DNA from: Clostridia bacterium
GTDB lineage: Bacteria; Bacillota; Clostridia; Christensenellales; Aristaeellaceae
Assembly (NCBI GenBank): GCA_017396845.1
Contig: JAFQKQ010000121.1
Location: 1 to 47,766, forward strand
Direction of reading: 5' to 3'
Length of the DNA stretch: 47,766 nucleotides
The position numbers were made by a program, and so were the translations under genes. This document shows, piece by piece, positions 1,931 to 20,468 of this stretch. Below the pieces are notes generated by a model. That model was not told where the DNA came from, ran no database searches, and saw only the letters and a list, made by a program, of their open reading frames with translations. Positions within the stretch are counted from its first letter, which is position 1. Every line of letters begins with the position of its first letter.

Positions 1931-2674
1931 TTACGCCTTGCACGGAATTCCGGGATTAAAGGAGGGCATCAGCCGGAGCTTGAACAGGTTCTTTTTGTGC
2001 ATGAAATCGATCAGCTTTTTCTTTTTGGGATCGTCGATTCTGCCTTCGCGGATATAGATATCCAGTTCTGCGTAGGTGAAGCCCAGATTCTCCTCGTCCG
2101 TCTTTCCGCAGAGGCCGTCGATGGGCGTTTTGTCTACGAGTATGGCGGGAAGGCCGAGAAGATAGCCGAGCTGCTTGATTTCCGTTACGGTCAGATTCGA
2201 CATCGGCGAGAAGTCGCCTACCGAATCGCCGTAGCGCGTGGAGTAGCCCACCCAGTCTTCGGAGAGGTTGCAGGTATTGGCCACGCGGCCGTTTACCGAC
2301 TGCGACACGGCGTAGAGCGTTGACATTCTGATTCGCGCGGGCAGATTCTGGCGCGACTGATCGGTAATTATGAGATCCTTCGGCATATTGTTCAGCACGC
2401 CGTCCACTGCGTCTTTGATGTTGACCGTATAGTGACGAATGCCGAGATGATTCACAAGCAGCAGCGACATATCGATATCTTGCTGAACGCCTTCTGGCAT
2501 CAGTACGCCTACAACGCGGTCCTTTCCGAGCGCTTCTACGCACAGCGCGGCGGCGATGGAGGAATCTTTTCCGCCGGATATGCCGATCACGGCGTTCGCG
2601 CCTTTTCCGTTTTCCTCAAAGAAATCGCGAATCCATTGTATGCAGTCGTTTTTAATCTTCAGAATATCGATCAT
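1931..2674 (-). CDS. nadE: NAD+ synthetase (ammonia-dependent)
   Basis: This enzyme catalyses the last step of NAD synthesis: nicotinate adenine dinucleotide plus ATP and ammonia gives NAD. The protein has 247 residues, the size of the glutaminase-free bacterial NadE. The ATP pyrophosphatase P-loop SGGKDSS spans residues 33-39. The SEDWVGYSTRYGDSVGDFSP block and the KTPIDGLCGKTDE segment are typical of NadE. It is the last gene of a six-gene minus-strand operon. Its ATG overlaps the TGA of the upstream phosphoribosyltransferase by one base (TGATG), which suggests translational coupling. Because NadE needs the deamidated (nicotinate) route, it is evidence on which substrate the upstream transferase uses. 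Confidence 0.96.
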   Translation of the reverse strand: MIDILKIKNDCIQWIRDFFEENGKGANAVIGISGGKDSSIAAALCVEALGKDRVVGVLMPEGVQQDIDMSLLLVNHLGIRHYTVNIKDAVDGVLNNMPKDLIITDQSRQNLPARIRMSTLYAVSQSVNGRVANTCNLSEDWVGYSTRYGDSVGDFSPMSNLTVTEIKQLGYLLGLPAILVDKTPIDGLCGKTDEENLGFTYAELDIYIREGRIDDPKKKKLIDFMHKKNLFKLRLMPSFNPGIPCKA

Positions 2675-4143
2675 CAGAATTCACCGCCGTTCAATCTCTG
2701 CCTGATTTCATCAAGCGTATATTCCCTGAGCATCTTGCCGTCGCGGAACACCGGCTTAAGAAGGTTTCCTTCCGGGATGGTTTCAGATGTGTATTCGTCC
2801 TTGTATTTCAGCTCGCCGTCTTCCTCATATACAAAGCACAGTCCCTTCTGGCTCTTTTTAAAGCCGCCGTCCTTCGGGTTTTTGAATATGGGATAGCATT
2901 TTCCGTCCACCTCGGCGTAGCAAGCCTTGATGCAGGAGCTGAAGGTGTCGCGGGTAAAGGGCTTAAGCATGTCATCCTCTTCGATGCAGTGCATGGAGAA
3001 GGAGCCGACGCCGAGCGCCACATTGGAGCAGGCAAAGCCGTTGTTTTTCAGGATTTCGTAGATTTCTTCGCATCTCTGAACGGTGATGCTGTCTCCGTAA
3101 ATGGCTTTGACGTGCGGGTTAAGCACTTTATAGCCCTTCTTGTTGATCGTTCCGCCAAACTGCTCCCAGAGCTTGAACACGGTCCCGGTGACTACCTCTA
3201 CGCAGTCGCCCGAATCGCCGCGCATCAGCATGCAGCCGTTGTGGGCGAGGATTTCGTTTTTCAGCTGGGGGAGAATGTTGTCGATTACGTTCCAGTAATC
3301 GTAGCTGTCCAGTACGCAGGAAAAACTGGTGTTGGGATAGAGCTCGGTAAGCATCTTCCGAAGGAAGGTAATCTCGTCGCCGTCCACGGCGTAATTGGAG
3401 CACATTACGAAATGCTCCGTGGACACTGCGCCGTATGCCACGTTGTCCTTCGTGCAGTCGCAGTTGAACATGCTTTCAAGATAGGGGATTACGGGAACCG
3501 TGGCTGTGTTTACAAACGACAGGCACCAGCCCGCGCCGGCTTTCAGCGCTGCATCTACGCACATATCGCCTCTGAAATCAAATGCGCCGAGCGCGCGGCT
3601 TCTTGGAACATCGTCGTCGACCGTCTCTTCGTAGTACTTGTTTACGATATCGCGGTAGGTTTTGCCGACCGTCGCGGTGATCTGCGGATACCACATCTCC
3701 GCCGATATCAAGCTCTCCAGCGCCTGCGACAGCCATGCGAAGTCATCGTGGGTGTTGGTGATACCGAACATCGGAATGTGAACGGGTACCATTGTGCCCT
3801 CCGGCAGGGCGATCACTTCGATCGGAAGATAGCCGAGGCGGTGAAGCTTCCGGATTTTTTCGGAAGAGTATACGCCTTTTCCGAGAGATGCATCCAGCAC
3901 GCGCTCGTATTCCGCTACTACCTCTTCTTCCGGTCTGGAGAAGAAGTGATCGTTGAAGTAATCGATCATCCAGGTTTTACAGAACATCTGAACGCCGAAC
4001 ATGACCACCTTGTCCCAGCGCTTTACGCGGCTCATGCGGGGCGTGTAGTAGGACATGGCCTTGGTCATTTTGGGGTGAATCATATCGCTGTGAACGGTTT
4101 TATAAAAATCGCACAGAAGCATGGGATTGATGACATTTGGCAT
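2674..4143 (-). CDS. Nicotinate/nicotinamide phosphoribosyltransferase (NAMPT family)
   Basis: The enzyme joins PRPP to a pyridine base to make a mononucleotide for NAD salvage. The protein has 489 residues, close to animal NAMPT. Visible family blocks are the N-terminal CDFYKTVH (residues 11-18), catalytic H244 in STEHF, the VLDSYDYWNV block, R308-GDSGD (NAMPT has RPDSG), INKKGYKVLNPHVKAIYGDS, and the C-terminal FKNPKDGGFKKSQKG. At the place of human NAMPT D219, which contacts the nicotinamide amide, the sequence FVNTATV has alanine (A214 by eye alignment). With the nearby nicotinamidase-like gene and NadE, this favours nicotinate as substrate. I chose the ATG at 4143 because AAAGGAG lies 7 bases upstream; a longer frame to 4251 would run into the preceding gene. 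Substrate is unproven. Confidence 0.88.
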   Translation of the reverse strand: MPNVINPMLLCDFYKTVHSDMIHPKMTKAMSYYTPRMSRVKRWDKVVMFGVQMFCKTWMIDYFNDHFFSRPEEEVVAEYERVLDASLGKGVYSSEKIRKLHRLGYLPIEVIALPEGTMVPVHIPMFGITNTHDDFAWLSQALESLISAEMWYPQITATVGKTYRDIVNKYYEETVDDDVPRSRALGAFDFRGDMCVDAALKAGAGWCLSFVNTATVPVIPYLESMFNCDCTKDNVAYGAVSTEHFVMCSNYAVDGDEITFLRKMLTELYPNTSFSCVLDSYDYWNVIDNILPQLKNEILAHNGCMLMRGDSGDCVEVVTGTVFKLWEQFGGTINKKGYKVLNPHVKAIYGDSITVQRCEEIYEILKNNGFACSNVALGVGSFSMHCIEEDDMLKPFTRDTFSSCIKACYAEVDGKCYPIFKNPKDGGFKKSQKGLCFVYEEDGELKYKDEYTSETIPEGNLLKPVFRDGKMLREYTLDEIRQRLNGGEF

Positions 4144-4156
4144 ATATTTCGCTCCT

Positions 4157-4954
4157 TTACAGATGGATGATTTCAATTTTGTCGTGCGGCTTTGTCTGGA
4201 GGCTTTCGGTGGTGAACACCTTTTTGATGAGTCCGCAGGTGAGCACTTCACCTTCGAATATGGTGTTTTCGCAGTGGGTTACATAGAGATAAATGTTTTT
4301 TGCGCCGAGCTCGTGAAGCTTCCTGGCGCTGTGGAAGAAGGTTCCGCCGCGCGAGCAGATATCGTCTATGATCAAAACATTTTTACCGTTTATCGCGTCC
4401 GTATCGCCGGATGCGTCCAGTCCCAGAATCTGACCGGTTTTCCAGTCGCGCTTTTTGATGCCGAATGCGTATGGCAGGGGAATCTGTCCGCTGTAGCGCT
4501 TGGATGCGCCCTCATCGGGGTAGAACGCGGAGGGCTTTTCGCCTTCCGCCTGCTCGATTGCCAAAAGCGCATATTCGATATAGGGGGCGGGTCTCAGAAT
4601 CTCAATCCGGTCGATCAGCGCCTCGCTGACGGAGGAGTGCGGATCGAGTACTGTAACCTTATGAAAGGGGAGGGAATTGATAAGGCCGGCAAAGTATTTG
4701 AGCGTGAATACGTCTTCCTTTGTCTTTACGCGATCCTGACGGGCGTTGGGGATGTATGGCATGAAAAGATCAATCGTTTCCACGCCGTTTGCCTTCAGAT
4801 GGTTTGCAAGGTAGATAAGCGCGAGGGTCTCGCGGTCGCATTCATAGTACCATTCGATTTTTGCATATCCGTCTTCTGGCGGATTCTGTTTGATCAGCAT
4901 CGTCCCGTCGGGAAAGCTCGAAATGGTGATGATTTCGCCGTTCAGCTTCAGCAT
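4157..4954 (-). CDS. Ribose-phosphate pyrophosphokinase-like protein
   Basis: Likely makes PRPP from ribose 5-phosphate and ATP, supplying the phosphoribosyltransferase 13 bases downstream. The protein has 265 residues, shorter than housekeeping Prs (about 310-320). The PRPP loop VLIIDDICSRGGT spans residues 193-205, and MPYIPNARQDR near residue 65 matches the Prs PYxxYARQDR block. The N-terminal flexible-loop histidine region is reduced. Its place between a nicotinamidase-like gene (3 bases away) and the transferase argues for a dedicated NAD-salvage PRPP source rather than the general enzyme. An alternative is a phosphoribosyltransferase-like protein without kinase activity. Confidence 0.82.
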   Translation of the reverse strand: MLKLNGEIITISSFPDGTMLIKQNPPEDGYAKIEWYYECDRETLALIYLANHLKANGVETIDLFMPYIPNARQDRVKTKEDVFTLKYFAGLINSLPFHKVTVLDPHSSVSEALIDRIEILRPAPYIEYALLAIEQAEGEKPSAFYPDEGASKRYSGQIPLPYAFGIKKRDWKTGQILGLDASGDTDAINGKNVLIIDDICSRGGTFFHSARKLHELGAKNIYLYVTHCENTIFEGEVLTCGLIKKVFTTESLQTKPHDKIEIIHL

Positions 4955-4957
4955 CGG

Positions 4958-5488
4958 TTATTCCCCCTTTACGATGATTTGGCACATTTTCATGGTTTTG
5001 AGCGCGGCGTTATGGGTTTGGGGCGTAACGCCTGCGCAACATGCGGCGTCTACCGATATCTCTGCGCTCAGGAAATGGGCTTTCAGCAGAAGCGCGTTTG
5101 ATACCACGCAGATATCCGTGCAAAGACCGATTAACTCAATTTCTGCGTTTCCGTCCGGCGCGATGGCCTTCACGCATTCGGGAAGCTCGGTCGATCCGAA
5201 TGTGGGCTTTTCGATGAAGAGGGCGTTCTTTCCGGCAAGTGCGTTTTGCACCTTTTCGTTCAGCTGCCAGCCGCTTGTTCCCTTGATGCAGTGTTTGACG
5301 GGCAGGAACTTGCCCTCCTGGGTATTCATATAGTCGTCGTGGTGGGTGTCGTAGGTAACAATGATATCGCCTTGAAAGGAATTGATTTTCCCGCACACAT
5401 TGCCTACAATGGCTTCGGCTTCCTTGGTTCCGAGTGCGCCGTCAACAAAATCGTTCTGCATATCCACAACAATCAGTATCTTTTTCAT
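4958..5488 (-). CDS. Isochorismatase-family cysteine hydrolase, probable nicotinamidase
   Basis: Probably hydrolyses nicotinamide to nicotinate and ammonia. The protein has 176 residues. The Asp-Lys-Cys triad of the family is visible as D9 (VVDMQNDF), K94 (FIEKPTFGS) and C127 (GLCTDICVVSNA). Metal ligands of PncA-type enzymes fit D47, H49 and the H66-C67 region (KHCIKGTSGW). It lies 2 bases after the methyltransferase and 3 bases before the PRPP-synthetase-like gene. The isochorismatase family also holds other amidohydrolases, but this operon context makes nicotinamide the natural substrate. A nicotinamidase next to a NAMPT-family enzyme implies the latter works on nicotinate. Confidence 0.85.
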   Translation of the reverse strand: MKKILIVVDMQNDFVDGALGTKEAEAIVGNVCGKINSFQGDIIVTYDTHHDDYMNTQEGKFLPVKHCIKGTSGWQLNEKVQNALAGKNALFIEKPTFGSTELPECVKAIAPDGNAEIELIGLCTDICVVSNALLLKAHFLSAEISVDAACCAGVTPQTHNAALKTMKMCQIIVKGE

Positions 5489-5490
5489 TT

Positions 5491-6264
5491 TCAGCCTCTC
5501 CTTTTCAAAAGAATCTTGAAATGCGTTGCGTCCTTCAGGTCTATGCCGGAATCCTTTCGGATTTTTTGTTTGTTGAAGGGGAGTACGTAGTGCTCGCTGT
5601 ATACGATTTCGTAATCATCCGGAATTTTGCCAAGCAGCGTTTCCACCGTAATCGGCAGATAATTTTCGCGGACCTCGCGGTCCCAGTTTTCCGTGTAGGA
5701 GTATTTCAGCAGATAGTGGATCAGGTTAAAACGGATGTCGATCGGCCCCCATACGCTTTCGTACATCTTAAGCCTGTCGGGATACAGATTCCTTGCCCGC
5801 CTTACGTCCTGCGGATCCGACATCAGGCGGATATTGTCTGAGAGCATCATGTCGCGGATGGCGATGTAGCGGAAGCCCGAATGGAATACGCGGTTCCAGA
5901 ATTCGTTTACGGATTCCTCTGTTCCGTAGGAATACACCTCGTGAAGTGTGCTGGAAATGTTAATCAGCGTATCCTCCGCCTTCATGGGGATGTCCGACCA
6001 GCGGTCGTAGAATTCTGCGTTTTCAACCAGCGCCTTCGCTTTTGCAATCATGTCTTCGCTGATGTCGTAGCCGATATAGCGGTATTCCGGGAACAGGAAT
6101 TTCATTGCGCGTATCAGTACGCCGTTTGCGCATCCGAAATCCAGTATGGTTTTCACGGGCTCAAATACCTTGTCCATAAAGAACATTTTGTCAAGGAAGG
6201 ATTTTTGCATGCGGGAAACGTAAATATCGAGGTTGCTGATGGAATCCATATGAATCTCCGTCAT
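5491..6264 (-). CDS. Class I SAM-dependent methyltransferase of unknown substrate
   Basis: The protein has 257 residues and a Rossmann-type SAM site: motif I ILDFGCANG at residues 40-48, and the acidic post-motif YIGYDIS near residue 67. The rest (RDMMLSDNIRLMSDP and a basic C-terminus) gives no substrate clue that I recognise. It begins 7 bases after the radical SAM-NrtR gene and ends 2 bases before the nicotinamidase-like gene, so it belongs to the NAD operon. Its role there is open: methylation of a pyridine base, of a small product of the radical SAM enzyme, or of an RNA or cap are all possible. Family call is good; function is unknown. Confidence 0.85.
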   Translation of the reverse strand: MTEIHMDSISNLDIYVSRMQKSFLDKMFFMDKVFEPVKTILDFGCANGVLIRAMKFLFPEYRYIGYDISEDMIAKAKALVENAEFYDRWSDIPMKAEDTLINISSTLHEVYSYGTEESVNEFWNRVFHSGFRYIAIRDMMLSDNIRLMSDPQDVRRARNLYPDRLKMYESVWGPIDIRFNLIHYLLKYSYTENWDREVRENYLPITVETLLGKIPDDYEIVYSEHYVLPFNKQKIRKDSGIDLKDATHFKILLKRRG

Positions 6265-6271
6265 TTCTCAT

Positions 6272-8434
6272 TCACTTCCTTCTGAAAAGCTGGGCGGGCC
6301 GATGACCTGCGCCCTCTACGTATTCGTCGGTTTCTTCTACAAAGCTTTGGATTTTCCGTCTGAAATTTGCGGGCAGCAGCTGTACGCCGGTCAGGGTTTC
6401 CTGTACTCTTTGTAGCGATGAAAGCGTGAATTTCTCGGGAAGGAATTCAAAAGCCAGATTGGTAAGCGCCGCTTCCTCGCGGATCGTCGACAGCGCGCTT
6501 TGGATGATGACGGCGTGGTCGAATGCGAAGCCGCTGTTTTCAATAATTTCAAAATCATATTTCTTTCCGCTTGTTCGTTTTTTTGAGAGCAGTGCGGTGA
6601 GCAGGATGTTTTCGTTTGTAAGCGTAAGGCGAATGTTTCCGCTTTCCTCCGTTTGGAAATCCACCTCGAACCACTTTGCGTCGATGGCGTCGTCACCGCC
6701 CAGCGGGCGAACATTTTCTTCGCTTAGCACCGATGCATATGCGTAGGATATGATTCTGCCCCGCGGGTCGCGGCCCGGGGTGCTGAATATGCCGACGGGA
6801 AGCATGAAGTAGGGAGATACGCCCGTTTCTTCCGTTACTTCGCGGTGCGCGCATTGCTCGATGGTTTCGTTTGCCCTTACGAATCCGCCGGGAAGCGCCC
6901 AGCGATTCATGAACGGATGCTCGCCTCTTCGAATGAGCAGAAGGCTTAGGTGCTGCTTCGGATTTTTGCGGTAGCATTCGCTTTCGCCGGTCTGCAGTGA
7001 GAATACGCAGATATCAGAAGCGACGGAGGGACGGTCGTAATCGTTTATGTTGTAGGCGGAGAGGAACAGCTTTTCATCTGCTTCCTCGGAGCGGCTTTTT
7101 CTGAGAAAGGCCGTTTTCAGCTCCTCCTTGGATCTTTCGGAGTAGAAAAGCGGTATTATGCCGTTAATGAAGTCGCTTCCGCGCTCAGTTAAGTAAAGCC
7201 GGCTGCCTTTTTGCTCCATCAGCCCATTTTCAAGCACAAACTCCGTTTCTTTGGCAAAATACTTGAAAAAGTCTACGCCAAAGCGCTTTTTAAAGGCGGT
7301 GAGATCGACAAATGCGAAGTAGAATGCGACGGAGACCATCTTGGCAATGGATTCATCCAACGGCAGGCGGTAGATATCCTGAAAGGGCAGGCGGCCCTCC
7401 AATACAGCTGTTTTGTATTTTTCCATCCGCTTGTCAGCTGCGCCTAGATTGTAGGATAAGTAGTTCATGCCGAAGGACTGCGCGCCCAGCCCCATGCCCA
7501 CATAGGGCGTGCCGTTGATTACGCGCTTTGTGAGATAGTCGCTGGTGCCGTAATCGCCTTCTACGCGGCTGAATGTGTTTTTCCCTACGTTTGCGCTGTA
7601 ACCGTTTTCGGTAAGCGTGCGGTGGGCGATGCGGTATTGGTACATGGCTTTGTAAATGGATACGCCGCCCGCTTCCGACTCGATTTTTGTGCCCTTGTAT
7701 CTGTTTCGGTAGAGCGTGATGTATTCTGGGTTCAGGCCGACTGCGTATTTCAGCGTGTTGTCGAAATCCGCCTCGGACTGATGCAGAAAGCCGTACATGA
7801 GATCGATGTTAAAGCGCTCAAAGCCCGCTGAGCGGATGTTTTTTACCGCTTTTTCGTATATGCTCATGGAACCGTCGCGGCCGAGCTCACTTAACAGCTT
7901 CTCGGATACCGTCTGTACGCCCATGCTGATTCTCTTGTAGCCCATATCGTATATGGCCTTGATTTTTTCAGGCTCATTGGCGGCGATCAGAGGCGTGGTC
8001 TCGATGCTGAACACGGTGCCGGGCGAAATGTTGAATTTCTCGTTTACGGCGTTTGTGATCTTCAAAAGATTTTGGCAGGACAGCTTTGCGGGCGTTCCGC
8101 CGCCCAGATCATAGCCCACGATGCGCTTATCCTTGAGGATTTTTGCGTACATGTCCATTTCTTTGAGAAGCAGATCCGTATATTCATCCTCCGCATTCTC
8201 GCCTGCGCCCTCTACGACCACGTATTCGCAAAACTTGCAGCGGGTTTTGCAGAAGGGGATGTGAATATACAGTGACAGCTCCTCCGCCTCTGCCCATTCG
8301 CTTTTGACAAAGGAGAGAATTTCGTCCTCATCCCTCAATTTGTATTTCATAAACGATGCGGGTGTGAGCGGATAGGCTGTATTGGCGTAGTGATGAAACA
8401 GCAAACCGTTTTCGTAGCATTCGCGTGAATCCAT
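6272..8434 (-). CDS. Fusion of HemN/HemW-like radical SAM domain with NrtR-like NUDIX plus winged-helix regulator
   Basis: This 720-residue chimera is the first gene of the NAD operon. Residues 50-430 are a HemN/HemW-type radical SAM enzyme: YIHIPFC with the 4Fe-4S cysteines C62, C66 and C69, then GGGTP near 112, DLMYGF near 211, GMGLGAQS near 313, and a HemN_C-like tail (GSRLYLTERG). Residues 466-600 are a NUDIX domain with a complete box (G517 to V539, including R531-E532 and E535-E536) and the PGRDPRGR block typical of ADP-ribose NUDIX and NrtR proteins. Residues 636-720 match the NrtR winged helix (FAFDHA, FEFLPEKFTLSSLQ, ANFRRK, GAGHRPAQLF). NrtR represses NAD genes and senses ADP-ribose-type ligands. 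AAAGGAGG lies 8 bases before the ATG. Domain calls are firm; the combined function is inference. Confidence 0.9.
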   Translation of the reverse strand: MDSRECYENGLLFHHYANTAYPLTPASFMKYKLRDEDEILSFVKSEWAEAEELSLYIHIPFCKTRCKFCEYVVVEGAGENAEDEYTDLLLKEMDMYAKILKDKRIVGYDLGGGTPAKLSCQNLLKITNAVNEKFNISPGTVFSIETTPLIAANEPEKIKAIYDMGYKRISMGVQTVSEKLLSELGRDGSMSIYEKAVKNIRSAGFERFNIDLMYGFLHQSEADFDNTLKYAVGLNPEYITLYRNRYKGTKIESEAGGVSIYKAMYQYRIAHRTLTENGYSANVGKNTFSRVEGDYGTSDYLTKRVINGTPYVGMGLGAQSFGMNYLSYNLGAADKRMEKYKTAVLEGRLPFQDIYRLPLDESIAKMVSVAFYFAFVDLTAFKKRFGVDFFKYFAKETEFVLENGLMEQKGSRLYLTERGSDFINGIIPLFYSERSKEELKTAFLRKSRSEEADEKLFLSAYNINDYDRPSVASDICVFSLQTGESECYRKNPKQHLSLLLIRRGEHPFMNRWALPGGFVRANETIEQCAHREVTEETGVSPYFMLPVGIFSTPGRDPRGRIISYAYASVLSEENVRPLGGDDAIDAKWFEVDFQTEESGNIRLTLTNENILLTALLSKKRTSGKKYDFEIIENSGFAFDHAVIIQSALSTIREEAALTNLAFEFLPEKFTLSSLQRVQETLTGVQLLPANFRRKIQSFVEETDEYVEGAGHRPAQLFRRK

Positions 8435-8463: not shown

Positions 8464-8502
8464 AGATAATATCATAAAGATAATAACATGTCAATACTAT
8501 CT
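8464..8502 (-). promoter_or_regulatory. Promoter and candidate NrtR operator of the NAD operon
   Basis: On the minus strand, -35 TTGACA (8489-8494) and -10 TATTAT (8466-8471) are separated by exactly 17 bases. A 25-bp imperfect inverted repeat, AGATAGTA...TAtTATCT, spans 8478-8502 and covers the -35 box with 7 of 8 outer pairs matching. A third half-site AGATAATA (8464-8471) overlaps the -10. A repressor here would block polymerase, which fits the NrtR module encoded by the first gene. Confidence 0.7.
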
Positions 8503-8512
8503 CGATTTTTTT

Positions 8513-8553
8513 TCAAAAAAAATATGCGCCCGCCTTATCGGACAGACGCATAT
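8513..8553 (-). terminator. Rho-independent terminator of the ABC operon
   Basis: On the minus strand a 13-bp stem with some G-U pairs begins ATATGCG and closes CGCATAT, followed by a run of eight T. It lies 17 bases past the stop of the ABC permease gene. Confidence 0.85.
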
Positions 8554-8569
8554 GAAGAGAAACACTTTT

Positions 8570-9295
8570 TCAGAATCTTTTGCCTTCCAGCGTCAGCGCG
8601 CCTGCGGACAGGAAAAGAATAGCCGGGGCGGCGACGGCTGCAATGCGCAGAAGGAGATCGAAGGCGTTCAGTCCGCCGTGAAGCATGCTGTGCCAGGGAA
8701 TGTAGCTTGTAAAGAGCATGGGGGATATGCCGAAAAATGATCCGAGCACCTTTAATAAGATATATGATACGATCAAAAGGAGCATGGAAAACGCGGGGCT
8801 GTGCGTGAGAAGGGAAATCAGACAGGCAAACACGATCAGTGTAAACAGGGGAATGGCGTCAAAAAGCACGTATGCAAACGGAAGCAGTGAAATTCCGCCG
8901 TCTGTAATAAAATACAAAACGACGTTTCCGGCCGCGATGATCAGTGCCTGAACGACGGTAAAAAGCAGTATGGAAAAGCATTTGGCGGTATATATACAGG
9001 TTCTTGATACGGGACTGACGAGGGAAGAAATAATGGTTTTTTCCTTGATTTCGCTTGCAATCAGATCGTTTGCCGCCATAAATACGATCAGCGGAAGGTA
9101 GATGGAGAACATATGATCAATATAGCCGGCTGCGCTGAATAAGTTTATGGCAGGCTCGGAAGACAGCGCGGGCAGTGTATTAAGAATTCCCGTAAGAACG
9201 CCCAGTCCCATGGCGATCAAAAGAAAAATGAAGTATTTTTTCCGCTTTCGAAGCTTTCTCGTTTCCGCTTTCAGTACGGACAGAAAACCGTTCAT
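8570..9295 (-). CDS. ABC transporter permease
   Basis: A 241-residue integral membrane protein. After a basic N-terminus (ETRKLRKRKK) there are about six hydrophobic stretches, near residues 20-38, 58-76, 105-128, 140-160, 166-185 and 212-232. The layout resembles the ABC-2 type permeases that pair with a single separate ATPase. It overlaps the ATPase gene by four bases (ATGA) and is the last gene of a three-gene operon. The substrate cannot be read from the sequence. Export of a peptide, lipid or drug is common for such pairs in Firmicutes. Confidence 0.82.
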   Translation of the reverse strand: MNGFLSVLKAETRKLRKRKKYFIFLLIAMGLGVLTGILNTLPALSSEPAINLFSAAGYIDHMFSIYLPLIVFMAANDLIASEIKEKTIISSLVSPVSRTCIYTAKCFSILLFTVVQALIIAAGNVVLYFITDGGISLLPFAYVLFDAIPLFTLIVFACLISLLTHSPAFSMLLLIVSYILLKVLGSFFGISPMLFTSYIPWHSMLHGGLNAFDLLLRIAAVAAPAILFLSAGALTLEGKRF

Positions 9296-10014
9296 GCGCT
9301 TTCCTCCTTTACGGCGCTCATATAGAAATCTTCGAGCGTTTGCTTTTCTGACAGCGCATTTTCAATCGGCGTGTCCTTGACGGTGCGTCCGTCCTTTAGA
9401 ATTCTTACTCGCGTTGCGATTCGTTCAAGATCTGCGGAAAGATGGCTGGATATGATGGCTGCGGCGCCCGTTTCATGGCATGCCTGCCTGATGGCGTTTT
9501 TCACGATGACTGCGTTTTCGATGTCCAGCCCGTTTGTGGGTTCGTCAAGAAGCAGAAGCTTCTTATTCCCGAGAAATTGAATGGCGACTGCCAGGCGCTG
9601 CTTCATGCCAAGGGAGAATTTTTTCACGGCTTCACGCCTGAAATCCGTAAGGGAGAAAAGCTCCATCATGCGCTCGGCATTTTTCTTGGCGCTGATCTGA
9701 TGGTACATGCATGCGATTTTCAGGTTTTCTTCGCACGACAGATGAAGATACAATGCGGGCGTTTCGATAATCGCGCCCACGCGTCTGAGCGCCCTCGCGG
9801 GATTTGCGTACGGATCCGCGCCTGCAATGGATATACTGCCCGCGTCCGGGCGCATGAGTCCGGATGCGATCTTTAAAAGCGTGGTCTTTCCACTTCCGTT
9901 CGCGCCCAAAAGTCCCAATATTTCGCCCTTTCCGAGGGTGAGATCCATGGTTTGAAGCCCGCGCCCGTTTCTGTATATGCGGGAAACGTTTTTCATTTCA
10001 AGTATGGCGCTCAC
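9292..10014 (-). CDS. ABC transporter ATP-binding protein
   Basis: The 240-residue nucleotide-binding subunit shows Walker A GANGSGKTT (residues 37-45), an ABC signature of the form FSLGMKQRL, Walker B KLLLLDEPTNGLD and the switch histidine in IISSHLSADLE. It is of the CcmA/BcrA class that pairs with an ABC-2 permease. Both ends overlap neighbours by four bases, so the three genes of the operon are translationally coupled. It energises the permease at the membrane; substrate unknown. Confidence 0.93.
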   Translation of the reverse strand: MSAILEMKNVSRIYRNGRGLQTMDLTLGKGEILGLLGANGSGKTTLLKIASGLMRPDAGSISIAGADPYANPARALRRVGAIIETPALYLHLSCEENLKIACMYHQISAKKNAERMMELFSLTDFRREAVKKFSLGMKQRLAVAIQFLGNKKLLLLDEPTNGLDIENAVIVKNAIRQACHETGAAAIISSHLSADLERIATRVRILKDGRTVKDTPIENALSEKQTLEDFYMSAVKEESA

Positions 10015-11222
10015 CGGGAAGCCTCCTCCGTATATGTGATTTCATAGGTTTTTCCGTCAAATTCGATGGTCTTTATAAAGTCATTTTCCTGAAGAATGAA
10101 GCCATTGATCTGTTTATATCCCGCTAAATTGGGTTTCCGCACCGCCGTGCTTCCGTAATTTGTGAAGCGGATGCTCCCTTCGAATATAAGCGGTCGCGTA
10201 TTTCCGCTGTAATCGGCTGCTTCAAATTCAGCAAAGTAGGTAATGCTTTTGAATTCGCCCGATTCATGGATTTCGATCTCGGCTGTCGCCGATTGATAGG
10301 AAAGCGTCTTTAAAAACGTCGTAAGTCCGTATTTGGCGATGGTTTCTTCGGTGAACGGAATAGAAGCCAGCCATGCCGCCTTGTTTTCATAGGTCTTCAT
10401 GCTTCCGTCCTTTGACACATATATAAACGTGTGCTCGCCCAGCGGTTCGGCCTTCTGCTCGTATTCGTCGATCATTTCGTCGTGCATCTTCCAGTAGGCG
10501 TTTATGACGTTCGGATTCTGGGAATAAATATCGAAGAAATCGCTGTCGAGCTCCTTTCCGGTCTTTTCCTGATAGAAAAGTCTGAAAGCCGCTTCTTTAT
10601 CTTCAAACTCCATTCTGCCGGGATATGAATTCGTTTCGGAAGCCTCCAGATTGAATATGTCGATAAATATTGAAGCGAACTCCGGAAGCTGCTCTTTTGA
10701 TACCGTCACGGTATAATGGTCCCCGCCTTCAATCCGGGTATGCGAGAACTGGTTTTTAATGTCGCCTGATAAGAAATCGGCGAAGAGCTTCAAAAGCCGC
10801 ATGGCCAGCCTTTCCTCTTCCTCCTCTTTCGCGGCGTCTGCTTCATAAGAGGAGGAGCCTGTTTTGCTTGAATACACGTGATAGGTTTTTTTCTCGTGAT
10901 CAAAGGAGTGATAATAATCGCCGTTGATCATATAGCTTTCGGTAAGCGTTTCCGTTCCGTTTTCATATTCCCAGGTTCTCTTATAACTGTCGCTGCCATC
11001 TGTTTCTTCGATGGTGCGCGTGGAGTTTGCCGGCTTTTGCCCGATGGTTGTAGTGATTTCGGTTTCGACGGTTACGTTTTTCGTTTCGAAAAGATACTTT
11101 TCGAGCGCTTCAAACATTCTTTCATATCCGTTTCCGGCGCCTGCCAGCATTGCCGCCGCCAGGGCGAACAGCACAAGAGATGCCAAAACGGCAATCAGCG
11201 CGATTTTCATTCGTTTGTTCAC
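10011..11222 (-). CDS. Membrane-anchored extracytoplasmic protein of unknown function, ABC operon
   Basis: A 403-residue protein with a basic start (NKRMK) and one hydrophobic segment at about residues 7-27, then a hydrophilic region with many charged and Thr-rich beta-like stretches. It is probably anchored by its N-terminus and faces outward. There is no lipobox cysteine. I do not recognise a domain. The frame extends upstream to 11249, but a GTG at 11222 is preceded at good distance by AGAGGTGAT, so I chose it. It is the first gene of the operon with the ABC ATPase and permease and overlaps the ATPase by four bases, so it may be a substrate-capture or sensor partner. Confidence 0.7.
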   Translation of the reverse strand: MNKRMKIALIAVLASLVLFALAAAMLAGAGNGYERMFEALEKYLFETKNVTVETEITTTIGQKPANSTRTIEETDGSDSYKRTWEYENGTETLTESYMINGDYYHSFDHEKKTYHVYSSKTGSSSYEADAAKEEEEERLAMRLLKLFADFLSGDIKNQFSHTRIEGGDHYTVTVSKEQLPEFASIFIDIFNLEASETNSYPGRMEFEDKEAAFRLFYQEKTGKELDSDFFDIYSQNPNVINAYWKMHDEMIDEYEQKAEPLGEHTFIYVSKDGSMKTYENKAAWLASIPFTEETIAKYGLTTFLKTLSYQSATAEIEIHESGEFKSITYFAEFEAADYSGNTRPLIFEGSIRFTNYGSTAVRKPNLAGYKQINGFILQENDFIKTIEFDGKTYEITYTEEASR

Positions 11223-11320
11223 AAGTATCACCTCTGATATATATGTCAATATTTGGACGAAAATAAAGGCTGTTTCGTTCCGAATCCGGGCGCATTTTAT
11301 CGGATCCTTTGATATTCGTT

Positions 11321-17034: not shown

Positions 17035-19119
17035 ATGCTGAAGATAAGCGGATGGAAGAAGTGGACGGCGGTTCTGGCGCTTTGTATGCTTATGATATCG
17101 TTAATTTGCATTCAGGCGTATGGCGAAGAGTCTTGCGAAGATGAGGCGGAGCCGACAGGCGAAGAAGCGGAGTACTATGAATATATACCTGAGGATCTTC
17201 CGGACAGCGAAGAGCTGTTTGATGGCTTTGCTATGCGGCTCTTATACGGACGCAGCGACCAGGCAACCTACGGCGTTCTCGCCCGAGAGCGCTTATCGGA
17301 GAAGAGCAAGAAGATTTATGATGTGATCAAGGAAGGCGTGATAGATCTCGCCCGAGGAGAACGCAGCTCTGCCGTACTGATTGTCAATGCCGCAGAGAGC
17401 GGATGCGGAACCTTCTCTGATTATAGCTATGAAGAGCTATGGCTTGTACTTGACGCGCTGCAGCACGATTGTCCGTATGAGATGTATATGTACAGGGGAT
17501 GCCGGGCAAGGATCTCTTCTCAAAGGATATCAGTAAGTATAATGATTGCTGCGATATATCGCCCCAGTAATTATGATGATGATAGCCCTACGATAGATAC
17601 GTCCAAAGCGCGCGCGACCGTGAACGCAGCCAACAATGCGCAGGCAATTGTCAACATGTACGCATCCTATTCGGACTATAATAAGCTGGCCGCTTATAAG
17701 GATAAAATCTGCAGTCTGGTTGAATATGATCATTATGCAGCGGATAATGATTTGTATGATACGGACATTCGTGCATGGACGCTGATCAATGCCTTTGACG
17801 GCGATCCCTCCACGAACATTGTTTGCAAGGGATATGCCGTTGCCTTTCAGTATCTTTGCGATTTATCCGATTTCACAGGAAACGTGGAATGCTACAGCGC
17901 ATTGGGCGACGTTTATTTCTATGACGGTTCTGACGGGTATCATCAGTGGAATATCGTCAGAATCAACGGAATCAGCTATTTTGCTGATATTACGGCTTGT
18001 GACAGCTATGGATCGGGCAGAGACAGAGAGGTGTTTATGTCCGGTGGATCCGGAAGTGCGGGTACAAACTATAGGATTAGCACATCGACATATATCTATG
18101 ACGATGGTACAAAGTCGATGTGGGGTACGGGGCCTGACAGTGTTCTGACTTTGTCCGCAACGGCGTACAATCCCTCTTCTCCGCCTACCCCTACGCCTAC
18201 GCCCATATATGAGATTTCTGTTGGCTCCTACAACGTTTCCATTTCGGCGGGCAGTTCAATCAAACTGTCGTTTTCAGCGCCTGCAAGCGGTGAATACCGC
18301 TTCTATTCCACGGGTGATTATGATACCCGCTGTTATCTCTATGACGAGAATATGGAGCAGCTGGCCTATAATGATGACAGCGGAGAAGGGAATAATTTCA
18401 ATATCTATCACAGATTGACTGCGGGACAGAAGGTGTATATTGTCTTAAACTTCTTTAATTCAGATACATCAGGAAGCTTTACGCTAACAGTAGAAGCACC
18501 GGCGGCACCCACCCCGACCCCTACGCCTACGCCCACCCCAACGCCTACTCCTACGCCTACCCCGACGCCTGCGCCCATATATGATATTACCGTAGGCTCC
18601 TACGACGTCTCTATTTCGGCGGGCAGTTCAATCAAACTGTTGTTTTCAGCGCCTGCAAGCGGTGAATACCGCTTCTATTCCACGGGTGATTATGATACCC
18701 GCTGTTACCTCTATGACGAGAATATGGAGCAGCTGGCCTATAATGATGATGATGGAGATGGATACAATTTCAGCATTTCTTATAGCTTAAGCGCGGGGCA
18801 GAAGGTATATCTGATTCTGAGTTTTTATAATTCAAATACATCGGGAACCTTTGGACTGATTGCAGAAGCGCCGACGACGCCTACGCCTACCCCAACGCCT
18901 GAGCCCATATATGATATTGCCGTAGGCTCCTACGACGTCTCTATTTCGGCGGGCAGTTCAATCAAACTGTCGTTTTCACGCCTGCAAGCGGTGAATACCG
19001 CTTTTATTCCACGGGTGATTATGATACCCGCTGTTACCTCTATGACGAGAATATGGAGCAGTTGGCCTATAATGATGACAGCGGAGAAGGAAATAATTTC
19101 AATATCTATTACGGATTGA
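17035..19119 (+). CDS. Secreted transglutaminase-like repeat protein, N-terminal part, frameshifted
   Basis: A signal peptide (LKISGWKK, then a hydrophobic core) is followed by a transglutaminase-like domain. Its likely triad is Cys264 in IVCKGYAVAFQYLC, His303 in GYHQWN and Asp318 in YFADITA (numbered from the ATG at 17035). Next come Pro-Thr linkers and near-identical ~95-residue beta domains resembling bacterial pre-peptidase C-terminal (PPC) modules: 18211-18508, 18583-18874 and 18913 onward. I prefer 17035 because AAGGAAG sits too close to the ATG at 17029. In the third module one G is missing after base 18978 compared with the first two copies. The frame then runs to a false stop at 19119; the true frame continues to 20468. 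It is a broken or phase-variable gene, or a sequencing error. Confidence 0.82.
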   Translation: MLKISGWKKWTAVLALCMLMISLICIQAYGEESCEDEAEPTGEEAEYYEYIPEDLPDSEELFDGFAMRLLYGRSDQATYGVLARERLSEKSKKIYDVIKEGVIDLARGERSSAVLIVNAAESGCGTFSDYSYEELWLVLDALQHDCPYEMYMYRGCRARISSQRISVSIMIAAIYRPSNYDDDSPTIDTSKARATVNAANNAQAIVNMYASYSDYNKLAAYKDKICSLVEYDHYAADNDLYDTDIRAWTLINAFDGDPSTNIVCKGYAVAFQYLCDLSDFTGNVECYSALGDVYFYDGSDGYHQWNIVRINGISYFADITACDSYGSGRDREVFMSGGSGSAGTNYRISTSTYIYDDGTKSMWGTGPDSVLTLSATAYNPSSPPTPTPTPIYEISVGSYNVSISAGSSIKLSFSAPASGEYRFYSTGDYDTRCYLYDENMEQLAYNDDSGEGNNFNIYHRLTAGQKVYIVLNFFNSDTSGSFTLTVEAPAAPTPTPTPTPTPTPTPTPTPTPAPIYDITVGSYDVSISAGSSIKLLFSAPASGEYRFYSTGDYDTRCYLYDENMEQLAYNDDDGDGYNFSISYSLSAGQKVYLILSFYNSNTSGTFGLIAEAPTTPTPTPTPEPIYDIAVGSYDVSISAGSSIKLSFSRLQAVNTAFIPRVIMIPAVTSMTRIWSSWPIMMTAEKEIISISITD

Positions 19120-20468
19120 CTGCGGGACAGAAGGTGTATATTGTCTTAGACTTCTATGATTCAGATGCATCAGGAAGCTTTACACTAACGGTAGAAGCGC
19201 CGGCGGAGCCCACCCCGACGCCCGCTGCAACGCCAATACCGGTTCTTGCTGTCGGCGTTAACAGCGTATACGTTCCGGCGGATCAAATGGTCAGAATGTC
19301 GTTTGTTGCACCGTTCAGCGGCGAATACGCTTTCTATACCACAGGCGATCAGGATACCGAGGGTTATTTGTATGATGCCGATATGAATTTGCTGGCCTCT
19401 GACGACGATGGGGGAGATTTGTATAATTTCAGTATCTCGTACAATCTGAATGCAGGACAAAAGGTGTATGCCAGCGTATGCTTCTATTTGCTGAGCGAAT
19501 CGGGAACGGTTTCACTGGTCGTGGAAGCGCCGACGCCGGGACCTGATACAGTGATCGCTTCCGGCTATTACTATGACGGAAACGCCGGCAAAACGGATAT
19601 CACATGGACGATCAAGGGAGACGGAAGCCTCACATTGTCGGGCAATGGAGAAGTGGAGTATGAGGGTGAGCTTAAAGGCCTTGACGACTACAGATCCATG
19701 GTAACATCGGTAGAAGCGGGCACAGGCATTACGGTGGCTGCCGGTTTTGATCATATGGTCAATCTCCAAACCGTAAATCTGCCGAATGTTATAATGATTG
19801 ATATGCGCGCATTCCAGGGCTGTACGAGTCTTGAAAGCGTGAATGCGCCGAATGCTAAACGGATATCGGAAGAAGCCTTTGAGGATTGTACAGGTCTTTC
19901 CAATTTAAACATAGATAAGATTGAGGAAATTGGAGAGGAGGCATTTAAAAACTGCATCTCGCTTACCAATATGTATTTGCTGGATACAATCTCTATATAT
20001 AGGGAGGCGTTTTCGGGATGCAATCTGTCGCTTCTGCAGATTTCTGCCTCCTTGGAGACGATTGGGGCGTATAATTTTGACACGCATAGCAATCTGCTGA
20101 CGATCTACGGCGGCACGCCGGAACAGTGGGCAAGCGTAACGGTGCATGAAGGCAACAGCAAATTGGAGCATGACTTCTTCTTCCTTGGGCCGAAATTTAT
20201 ACTGCCCGCAGGTCTTAAGGAGATCAGCGAGGAAGCGTTTGCAAATGCTTCTATGACGTTTGTCGTGTGTCCGAACGAAATGGAAAGAATTGGCAGCCGC
20301 GCCTTCATGAACAATCGGCAGCCGCTGGCAATTGAGATTCCTGCGACAGTATTTGAGATTGCGGATGATGCATTTGAAGGCTGTGAGGATTTGATGATCG
20401 TTACAGGTTTCGATACATATGCGTGTCGTTGGGCAAAGGATCGCGGAATCTGGGTCGTTGGGTATTGA
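19053..20468 (+). CDS. Secreted repeat protein, C-terminal part with BspA-like leucine-rich repeats (same gene, after frameshift)
   Basis: This is the continuation of the preceding gene in the corrected frame. It holds the end of the third PPC-like module, a Pro-Thr linker, a fourth divergent module (about 19240-19530), and from 19760 a run of about 23-residue repeats of BspA/LRR_5 type (FQGCTSLESV, FEDCTGLSNL, FKNCISLTNM). LRR_5 proteins of gut bacteria are usually surface adhesins. The in-frame ATG at 19053 lies inside a repeat without a ribosome site, so separate translation is unlikely. Restoring one base near 18978 would give one protein of about 1,140 residues. Confidence 0.8.
   Translation: MEQLAYNDDSGEGNNFNIYYGLTAGQKVYIVLDFYDSDASGSFTLTVEAPAEPTPTPAATPIPVLAVGVNSVYVPADQMVRMSFVAPFSGEYAFYTTGDQDTEGYLYDADMNLLASDDDGGDLYNFSISYNLNAGQKVYASVCFYLLSESGTVSLVVEAPTPGPDTVIASGYYYDGNAGKTDITWTIKGDGSLTLSGNGEVEYEGELKGLDDYRSMVTSVEAGTGITVAAGFDHMVNLQTVNLPNVIMIDMRAFQGCTSLESVNAPNAKRISEEAFEDCTGLSNLNIDKIEEIGEEAFKNCISLTNMYLLDTISIYREAFSGCNLSLLQISASLETIGAYNFDTHSNLLTIYGGTPEQWASVTVHEGNSKLEHDFFFLGPKFILPAGLKEISEEAFANASMTFVVCPNEMERIGSRAFMNNRQPLAIEIPATVFEIADDAFEGCEDLMIVTGFDTYACRWAKDRGIWVVGY

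Follow-up and report, generated by a model that had tools for sequence, protein, structure and literature searches.

A radical SAM protein fused to an NrtR-type regulator in some gut and rumen bacteria: a candidate autorepressed enzyme of ADP-ribose and NAD metabolism

NrtR-type regulators combine a NUDIX domain with an NrtR winged helix, carry an operator at their own promoter and are followed by NAD genes. Published work describes ADP-ribose as the NrtR ligand, repression by NrtR of its own gene (PMC6800001, PMC4666351), and an arginine which contacts the ligand in BtAraR and SoNrtR (PMC6800001/PMC4666351). The radical SAM proteins of the HemN/HemW/HutW/HemZ/STM4012 family share a common fold, the CX3CX2C cluster motif, a GGGTP motif and the HemN_C domain. 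Within this family a fourth cysteine, in a CxC arrangement, marks HemN. HNxxYW is given as the heme-binding motif of HemW in PMC11834973. Two further systems are of relevance here. NARP1 consists of the enzymes Adps and Namat, of which the latter hydrogen-bonds nicotinamide through Asp215, and its description leaves the role of bacterial NARP1 as a question (PMC12774641). ADP-ribosylglycohydrolase systems with a NUDIX-HTH regulator have also been described (PMC9503650).

The analysed DNA, a 47,766-nucleotide stretch of a Clostridia bacterium contig (hereafter the window), encodes a 720-amino acid protein, here termed RSN, in which a radical SAM/HemN-like half and an NrtR half are fused. RSN resembles NrtR in its NUDIX and NrtR_WHD domains, the operator at its own promoter and the NAD genes downstream, but differs in bearing an N-terminal 440-residue radical SAM enzyme and in falling short of the NCBIfam cut-off for the regulator family. 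The features of the locus are as follows:

6272..8434, minus strand: RSN fusion protein, 720 amino acids, comprising the radical SAM/HemN-like half (residues 1-440), a linker, the NUDIX domain (491-592) and the NrtR winged helix (661-718)
7115..8434, minus strand: radical SAM half, residues 1-440, with CX3CX2CEY (62-71), GGGTP (111-115), GKNTFS (284-289) and GLGAQSF (315-321)
6275..7081, minus strand: NrtR half, residues 452-720, NUDIX domain with an intact box and NrtR_WHD
8465..8485, minus strand: predicted operator of the NrtR type, TATTATCTTTATGATATTATC, which overlaps the -10 element; the sole match with at most two mismatches in its own assembly (73% complete)
8466..8494, minus strand: promoter-like TTGACA-17-TATTAT, its second hexamer preceded by TG (11/12 matches)
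8522..8553, minus strand: stem-loop resembling a terminator, situated between the ABC-transporter genes upstream and the promoter of RSN
5491..6264, minus strand: class I SAM methyltransferase, 257 amino acids, found among the RSN loci in the operon of this genome only
4958..5488, minus strand: PncA-like nicotinamidase of the isochorismatase family, 176 amino acids
4157..4954, minus strand: Adps-like kinase, 265 amino acids, a relative of ribose-phosphate pyrophosphokinase
2674..4143, minus strand: Namat/NAMPT-like transferase, alanine replacing the amide-reading aspartate; likely start ATG at 4143, longer frame from GTG at 4251
1931..2674, minus strand: NadE-like NAD synthetase, 247 amino acids, synthetase domain only

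The initial annotation had proposed a single frame without naming its strand, and the reading frame is indeed open from the ATG at 8434 to the TGA at 6272 on the minus strand, while the plus-strand reading of the same stretch contains stops; a ribosome-binding site, AAAGGAGG, lies 5′ of the ATG. All four Pfam domains exceed their gathering scores, namely Radical_SAM (residues 56-230; e-value: 4.8e-19) and HemN_C (376-421; 2.2e-7) in the N-terminal half, and NUDIX (PF00293; 491-592; 4.2e-19) and NrtR_WHD (PF21906; 661-718; 7.5e-18) in the C-terminal half, which agrees with the earlier description of a regulator with an enzyme built into its own chain. The annotated cluster cysteines (C62, C66 and C69), the NUDIX box GFVRANETIEQCAHREVTEETGV starting at residue 517 and the winged-helix stretches EKFTLSSLQ and GHRPAQLF are likewise all present, as is a GGGTP motif starting at residue 111. 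A structure model of RSN (mean pLDDT: 68.4; pTM: 0.52) is suited to fold naming only, and in Foldseek comparisons one of its halves resembled HemN and the other NrtR/AraR-type proteins.

Full-length RSN (residues 1-720) is encoded at nine further loci (L001-L009; 66-71% amino acid identity), so that the fusion is complete in ten loci including the window, and these nine loci rule out an assembly join, a frameshift or chance as its origin. An additional relative, L010, shares 78% identity over residues 1-443 and ends at the contig end. The relatives stem from one short-pattern scan of genome contigs and represent a lower bound; their records name Oscillospiraceae, Lachnospiraceae, Ruminococcus, Clostridia metagenome-assembled genomes (MAGs), an unplaced goat-rumen bacterium and Falcatimonas sp. 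MSJ-15, with a gut or rumen source given for five of the nine full-length copies. In the nearest-relatives sample, a search of 59 genomes besides its own gave no second full-length fusion, and RSN occurs in one of 307 other genomes of the family (G278, without the winged helix) and one of 390 other genomes of the class (G659, with a decayed winged helix). The distribution of RSN is rare and patchy. A phage- or plasmid-borne RSN was considered and rejected, as none was found in viral contigs and 80% query coverage was reached in 0/104 phage and 0/751 plasmid matching records. PADLOC returned weak partial matches only.

The two halves differ in their conservation, with a mean pairwise identity among the ten complete sequences of 78.9% for the radical SAM half versus 59.2% for the NrtR half (residues 452-720). 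The dN/dS values, of which the L004/L005 pair alone among four pairs tried gave values for both halves, are 0.039 and 0.093, respectively. The low identity of the NrtR half is mainly due to residues 593-660 (40.2%), the NUDIX domain and the winged helix sharing 64.4% and 71.1%, respectively. The CX3CX2C motif is intact in all thirteen RSN loci, GGGTP is conserved, and invariant residues are scattered across the whole radical SAM half, as in a catalyst. Given its intact cluster motif and high conservation, we consider with good confidence that this half is an active enzyme.

The earlier term "HemN/HemW-like" holds at the superfamily level only. The radical SAM half remains below the NCBIfam cut-offs for STM4012 (187.2 bits; cut-off: 380), HemN (173.7; 324.95), HutW (132.6; 400) and HemW (129.1; 205.4). 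RSN lacks HNxxYW, and has CEY where Escherichia coli HemN has CGC in the alignment with 1olt. The best structural match of this half is HemN (Foldseek e-value: 9.1e-21). RSN thus shares the fold, CX3CX2C, GGGTP and HemN_C with the HemN/HemW/HutW/HemZ/STM4012 family, but forms its own, separate clade, distinguished by CEY, GKNTFS and GAQS. At an e-value of 1e-60 or below, no unfused close relative was present in the other genomes of the family (307) or of the class (390). Matches at 1e-36 or below occur in 33/398 phylum and 7/396 order genomes, the own genome excluded; the 21 of these 40 that were examined (L174-L194) have CDF rather than CEY in 21/21 cases and HNxxYW in 19/21, and look like HemW. 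A scan of viral contigs gave a single distant match (25% identity).

Among 751 plasmid records, the best match to the radical SAM half, and the closest unfused relative found, is WP_237827892.1 of a Prevotella plasmid, which shares 33% identity over the whole half and forms a clade with RSN (support 100/100) on long branches. At this one locus, the gene lies 3.6 kb from that of a separate NUDIX-NrtR_WHD protein and 4.4 kb from an ADP-ribosylglycohydrolase gene, all on the same strand. The Prevotella locus hence pairs an ADP-ribosylglycohydrolase with a NUDIX-HTH gene, as do the systems of PMC9503650; the words "radical SAM" and "HemN" are absent from the main text of that paper, whereas the regulator in RSN is fused to such an enzyme. 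At this locus (L171:2782-9230; Prevotella sp. E2-28 plasmid), a second, MoaA-like radical SAM gene is located directly upstream of the unfused relative. A DUF1810 link to ADP-ribose was also sought, and no relevant literature was found.

The NrtR half, with both a NUDIX domain and an NrtR winged helix above the gathering scores (PF00293 and PF21906), qualifies as NrtR by domain content, and shares 37-58% identity with 20 relatives of the stand-alone kind. It scores 107.6 bits against the NCBIfam equivalog model NF050029 (NtrR; cut-off: 400), which appears narrow, given that the stand-alone protein of genome G445 (112.7 bits) also falls below it. Residue R503 is invariant in 10/10 sequences and aligns, by an inferred residue offset, with the ligand-contacting arginine of BtAraR and SoNrtR. 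By analogy with the family, ADP-ribose is a likely ligand of RSN.

The palindrome noted earlier upstream of the gene corresponds to a predicted NrtR-type operator over RSN's own promoter. Promoter-like sites in the region number 6 (shuffle mean: 6.6) and terminators 13 (9.4), and as these numbers are not clearly above the shuffles, the RSN promoter was chosen by place, score and conservation. The operator pattern TATTATC-N4-TGATATNATC, which was derived from the same RSN sequences and compared with shuffles preserving base composition only, is present with at most two mismatches upstream of ten of the thirteen RSN loci (window, L001-L004, L007-L010 and L046). L005 and L006 have four mismatches, and the operator is absent (six mismatches) in L045, a copy ending cleanly before the winged helix. 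A second palindrome, TATTATCA-N3-TGATAATA, derived from a single distant NrtR gene that stands alone (L030, the same gene as L050), occurs with at most two mismatches upstream of 15/19 other stand-alone NrtR genes examined; it is missing at L017, L018 and L038, and a stretch of only 56 bases is available at L042.

The window's own assembly (73% complete) contains one operator site and none for the reversed-pattern control. In the genomes with a solo RSN, its own operator is exact in G727 and has one mismatch in G726, where it is the best site. G727 has three more one-mismatch sites, none beside recognisable NAD genes as judged from the neighbouring frames; the RSN operator of G725 (L002) has two mismatches, as do six other sites in that genome; and in G659 and G728 two-mismatch sites and reversed-pattern controls occur at similar frequencies. 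The predicted operator overlaps the RSN promoter, and no other such site occurs in its own assembly (73% complete), which makes autorepression through this site likely. Since NAD genes are missing at five RSN loci, RSN itself would be its own most constant predicted target.

The association with NAD genes that the initial annotation expected of an NrtR is evident in the window, where RSN heads an operon with PncA, an Adps-like kinase, a Namat-like transferase and NadE. The genes from RSN through the methyltransferase, PncA and kinase to the transferase are separated by 7, 2, 3 and 13 bases, respectively, and transferase and NadE overlap by one base. The methyltransferase was rejected as a conserved radical SAM partner, with no PDB match at an e-value of 0.01 or below and none at 1e-15 or below in the 390 other class genomes. 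NAD genes adjoin RSN at seven of the thirteen loci: all four (PncA, Adps-like, Namat-like and NadE) at the window, L001, L003, L004 and L009, and PncA and NadE only at L005 and L006. A 48-residue transferase remnant in L005 suggests that the transferase gene was deleted there. At five loci (L002, L007, L008, L045 and L046) the examined flanks hold no NAD gene of the operon, and L010 is undecidable. No Namat homologue was found in seven of the nine RSN genomes searched, several of which are incomplete MAGs. The lack of these genes at five loci and in seven genomes indicates that the RSN enzyme is independent of this NAD route.

The downstream kinase and transferase are nearer to the Adps and Namat of SPbetaL1 than to PRPP synthetase and Nampt. 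The transferase scores 381 bits with 9w5x/9w5w, the former of which is, from its printed sequence, the SPbetaL1 protein, versus 157 bits with the Nampt-type chain 7yqo and at most 144 with human-type Nampt. The kinase shares 40.7% identity (159 bits) with SPbetaL1 Adps, the best PRPP synthetase in the PDB reaching 67 bits. By sequence it qualifies as an Adps-type kinase, scoring 266 bits against an HMM built from the kinases (n = 23) of Asp-type loci and 92.4 bits for PRPP synthetase, below the cut-off of 113. The operon differs from NARP1 (PMC12774641) in having alanine for Asp215, cysteine for Tyr396, a nine-residue insertion before TRD, and PncA and NadE alongside; PncA, NadE, nicotinic acid and NrtR are not named in the main text of that paper. 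In place of the uninterrupted, TRD-terminated Namat motif and of Asp215, the transferase has GSFSMHCIEEDDMLKPFTRD and the alanine. The amide is contacted by Asp219 of human NAMPT, a position at which human nicotinate phosphoribosyltransferase has Ser214 (PMC4442680).

The Asp215 position was compared in the 80 best-matching viral relatives out of 361, of which 22 have aspartate, 50 alanine and 8 serine. With flanks of up to 4 kb, some of them ended by contig ends, the Asp-type loci among these 80 hold PncA in 0/22 and NadE in 0/22 cases. The Ala/Ser-type loci of the same set hold PncA in 49/58, NadE in 51/58, both in 45/58, at least one in 55/58 and neither in 3/58. This link is essentially one deep tree split (100/99), so the 58 loci are not independent events; L054, on a very long branch, may be a second one. 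The Ala/Ser residue and the company of PncA and NadE in the viral relatives suggest a route in which PncA would convert nicotinamide to nicotinic acid, Adps would convert ADP-ribose to its pyrophosphate, the transferase would form nicotinic acid adenine dinucleotide (NaAD) and NadE would yield NAD+. The alternative, that the transferase uses PRPP as donor and makes NaMN, is consistent with the altered adenine clamp (Tyr396 to Cys, the insertion before TRD and, in the window, Ser190 to Asp), which counts against the NaAD route, and with a score above the NCBIfam nicotinate phosphoribosyltransferase cut-off (418 versus 405 bits). Such a nicotinic-acid route was not found in the literature among the matches listed, as far as their text was available; PMC12846349 concerns plain NARP1, with no mention of nicotinic acid or nicotinamidase, and PncA, NadE and nicotinic acid do not occur in the text of PMC13232231.

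The transferases of the window, L001, L003, L009 and L047 nest within viral ones in the tree, and for this reason the bacterial genes of the transferase route probably came from phages, although the IMG/VR contigs could include proviruses. Many contigs of phages, as well as some Clostridia of the gut, carry the apparent nicotinic-acid NARP1 set (window 1931-4954, minus strand; L054, L055 and L091-L148). One viral contig carries an NrtR-like NUDIX-HTH gene (L125:448-1194) near its PncA/Adps/transferase/NadE set.

The history of the two halves was traced in a tree of the NrtR halves of 12 fusions and of 21 stand-alone rows, from which L010, cut by its contig end, was left out. With one exception, the fusions group together with support (99/99) against the other stand-alone proteins: nested among them, as the sister of L009 (100/83), is the stand-alone NrtR of G445 (L027), for which loss of the radical SAM half is the simplest explanation. 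The G445 operon encodes, in order, NrtR, PnuC, a NadR-type adenylyltransferase, PncA, an Adps-like kinase, a Namat-like transferase and NadE, and its operator has one mismatch. A 292-amino acid radical SAM gene follows nadE there (L047:15419-16294), and has no BLAST match to the radical SAM genes of the Prevotella locus. The G278 copy of RSN stops behind its NUDIX domain, whose box has an altered spacing, and lacks the operator. The operator is kept in G659, where the RSN frame is shortened and, by our reading, winged-helix-like short stretches follow in other frames; tblastn matched residues only before the winged helix. The two halves are, judging from these losses, separable: one is missing from G445, and the winged helix of the other is gone or decayed in G278 and G659.

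Taken together, we lean towards RSN being an autorepressed, ADP-ribose-induced radical SAM enzyme of ADP-ribose/NAD metabolism. The NUDIX domain and winged helix would bind the operator between -35 and -10 and block the operon, as operator conservation suggests; ADP-ribose released by NAD+ glycohydrolysis would, as in the NrtR family, bind the NUDIX domain and free the DNA; and the radical SAM half would then perform a SAM-dependent radical step in ADP-ribose/NAD metabolism. This last step is the weakest, the substrate being a guess from gene company. The NUDIX domain may also hold or hydrolyse the ADP-ribose substrate, and so end the signal. The NAD genes at seven of thirteen loci and the Prevotella relative near NrtR and an ADP-ribosylglycohydrolase favour the ADP-ribose/NAD role, for which we see roughly an even chance. 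Counting against the overall reading are the five loci lacking NAD genes, the G445 operon lacking the radical SAM half, the 71.1% conservation of the winged helix itself, and the altered NUDIX box spacing of G278. A tentative, rather doubtful extension is that the radical SAM and NUDIX domains form one catalytic unit which edits an ADP-ribose- or NAD-derived molecule, such as a damaged dinucleotide or a NADase-defence signal, with the same NUDIX domain reading the substrate and acting through the winged helix to turn on the gene for the enzyme; some bacteria would thereby also induce a route of four enzymes, derived from phages, which rebuilds NAD+ via nicotinic acid adenine dinucleotide.

We favour this ADP-ribose-induced enzyme over sensing by the radical SAM half, in which loss of the oxygen-labile 4Fe-4S cluster or SAM charge would alter DNA binding by the NrtR half and tie NAD salvage to redox state. 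The initial annotation had raised both redox/SAM sensing and an enzyme acting on the NAD pool; the latter fits better, sensing being less well supported in view of G445, G278 and G659. Physical fusion, the CX3CX2C motif intact in 13/13 loci and host names that suggest anaerobes are in keeping with a sensor, but operator and operon persist in G445 without the radical SAM half, G278 and G659 keep that half without a working winged helix, and its invariant residues extend over its whole length as in a catalyst, making a sensor quite improbable. It is somewhat less improbable, though still unlikely, that the fusion is one of convenience, in which two unrelated proteins under a common promoter became linked, the enzyme being unconnected with NAD or ADP-ribose. 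RSN without NAD genes at 5/13 loci and the separable domains are what such a joining would predict; yet the searches within the phylum revealed no unfused member of the clade (none at 1e-60 or below in the family and class genomes, and the 21/40 weaker matches examined look HemW-like), copies without the winged helix still retain the NUDIX domain, and the Prevotella relative also lies by NrtR and an ADP-ribosylglycohydrolase. A variant heme protein (HemN, a HemW chaperone or HutW-like) linking heme and NAD could explain why HemN is the best structural match, but is very improbable for a protein in a separate clade, below every NCBIfam cut-off of the family, devoid of HNxxYW and with CEY in place of the CGC of E. 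coli HemN.

The absence of a described example, already remarked upon in the initial annotation, still stands: no paper combining NrtR, radical SAM and Nudix was found in open-access full texts, a scope that takes in few subscription papers, nor did such a fusion appear in the available text of the matches listed for NrtR, ADP-ribose and NAD. RSN, found in some gut and rumen bacteria, seems to control its own gene, often with NAD-rebuilding genes; a repressor which carries an enzyme and controls that enzyme's gene would be a compact feedback unit. A radical step on ADP-ribose or NAD derivatives would, if true, be a type of reaction which we do not know from this metabolism. The locus also bears on the role of bacterial NARP1, which becomes directly testable since NARP1-like genes are placed here under an NrtR-family repressor whose family ligand, ADP-ribose, is the NARP1 substrate.

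Other genes were observed around the RSN loci and the Prevotella relative. Just upstream of RSN, the window encodes an ABC transporter permease and ATPase and a 412-amino acid protein without a Pfam match (8570-11249, minus strand). Repeat proteins occur at several of these loci, namely a BspA-type leucine-rich repeat protein in the window (19053-20468), repeat-like proteins, by our reading, upstream of the solo RSN in L002 (L002:287-7885), and annotated repeat proteins by the Prevotella relative (L171:711-1835 and L171:9936-11660).
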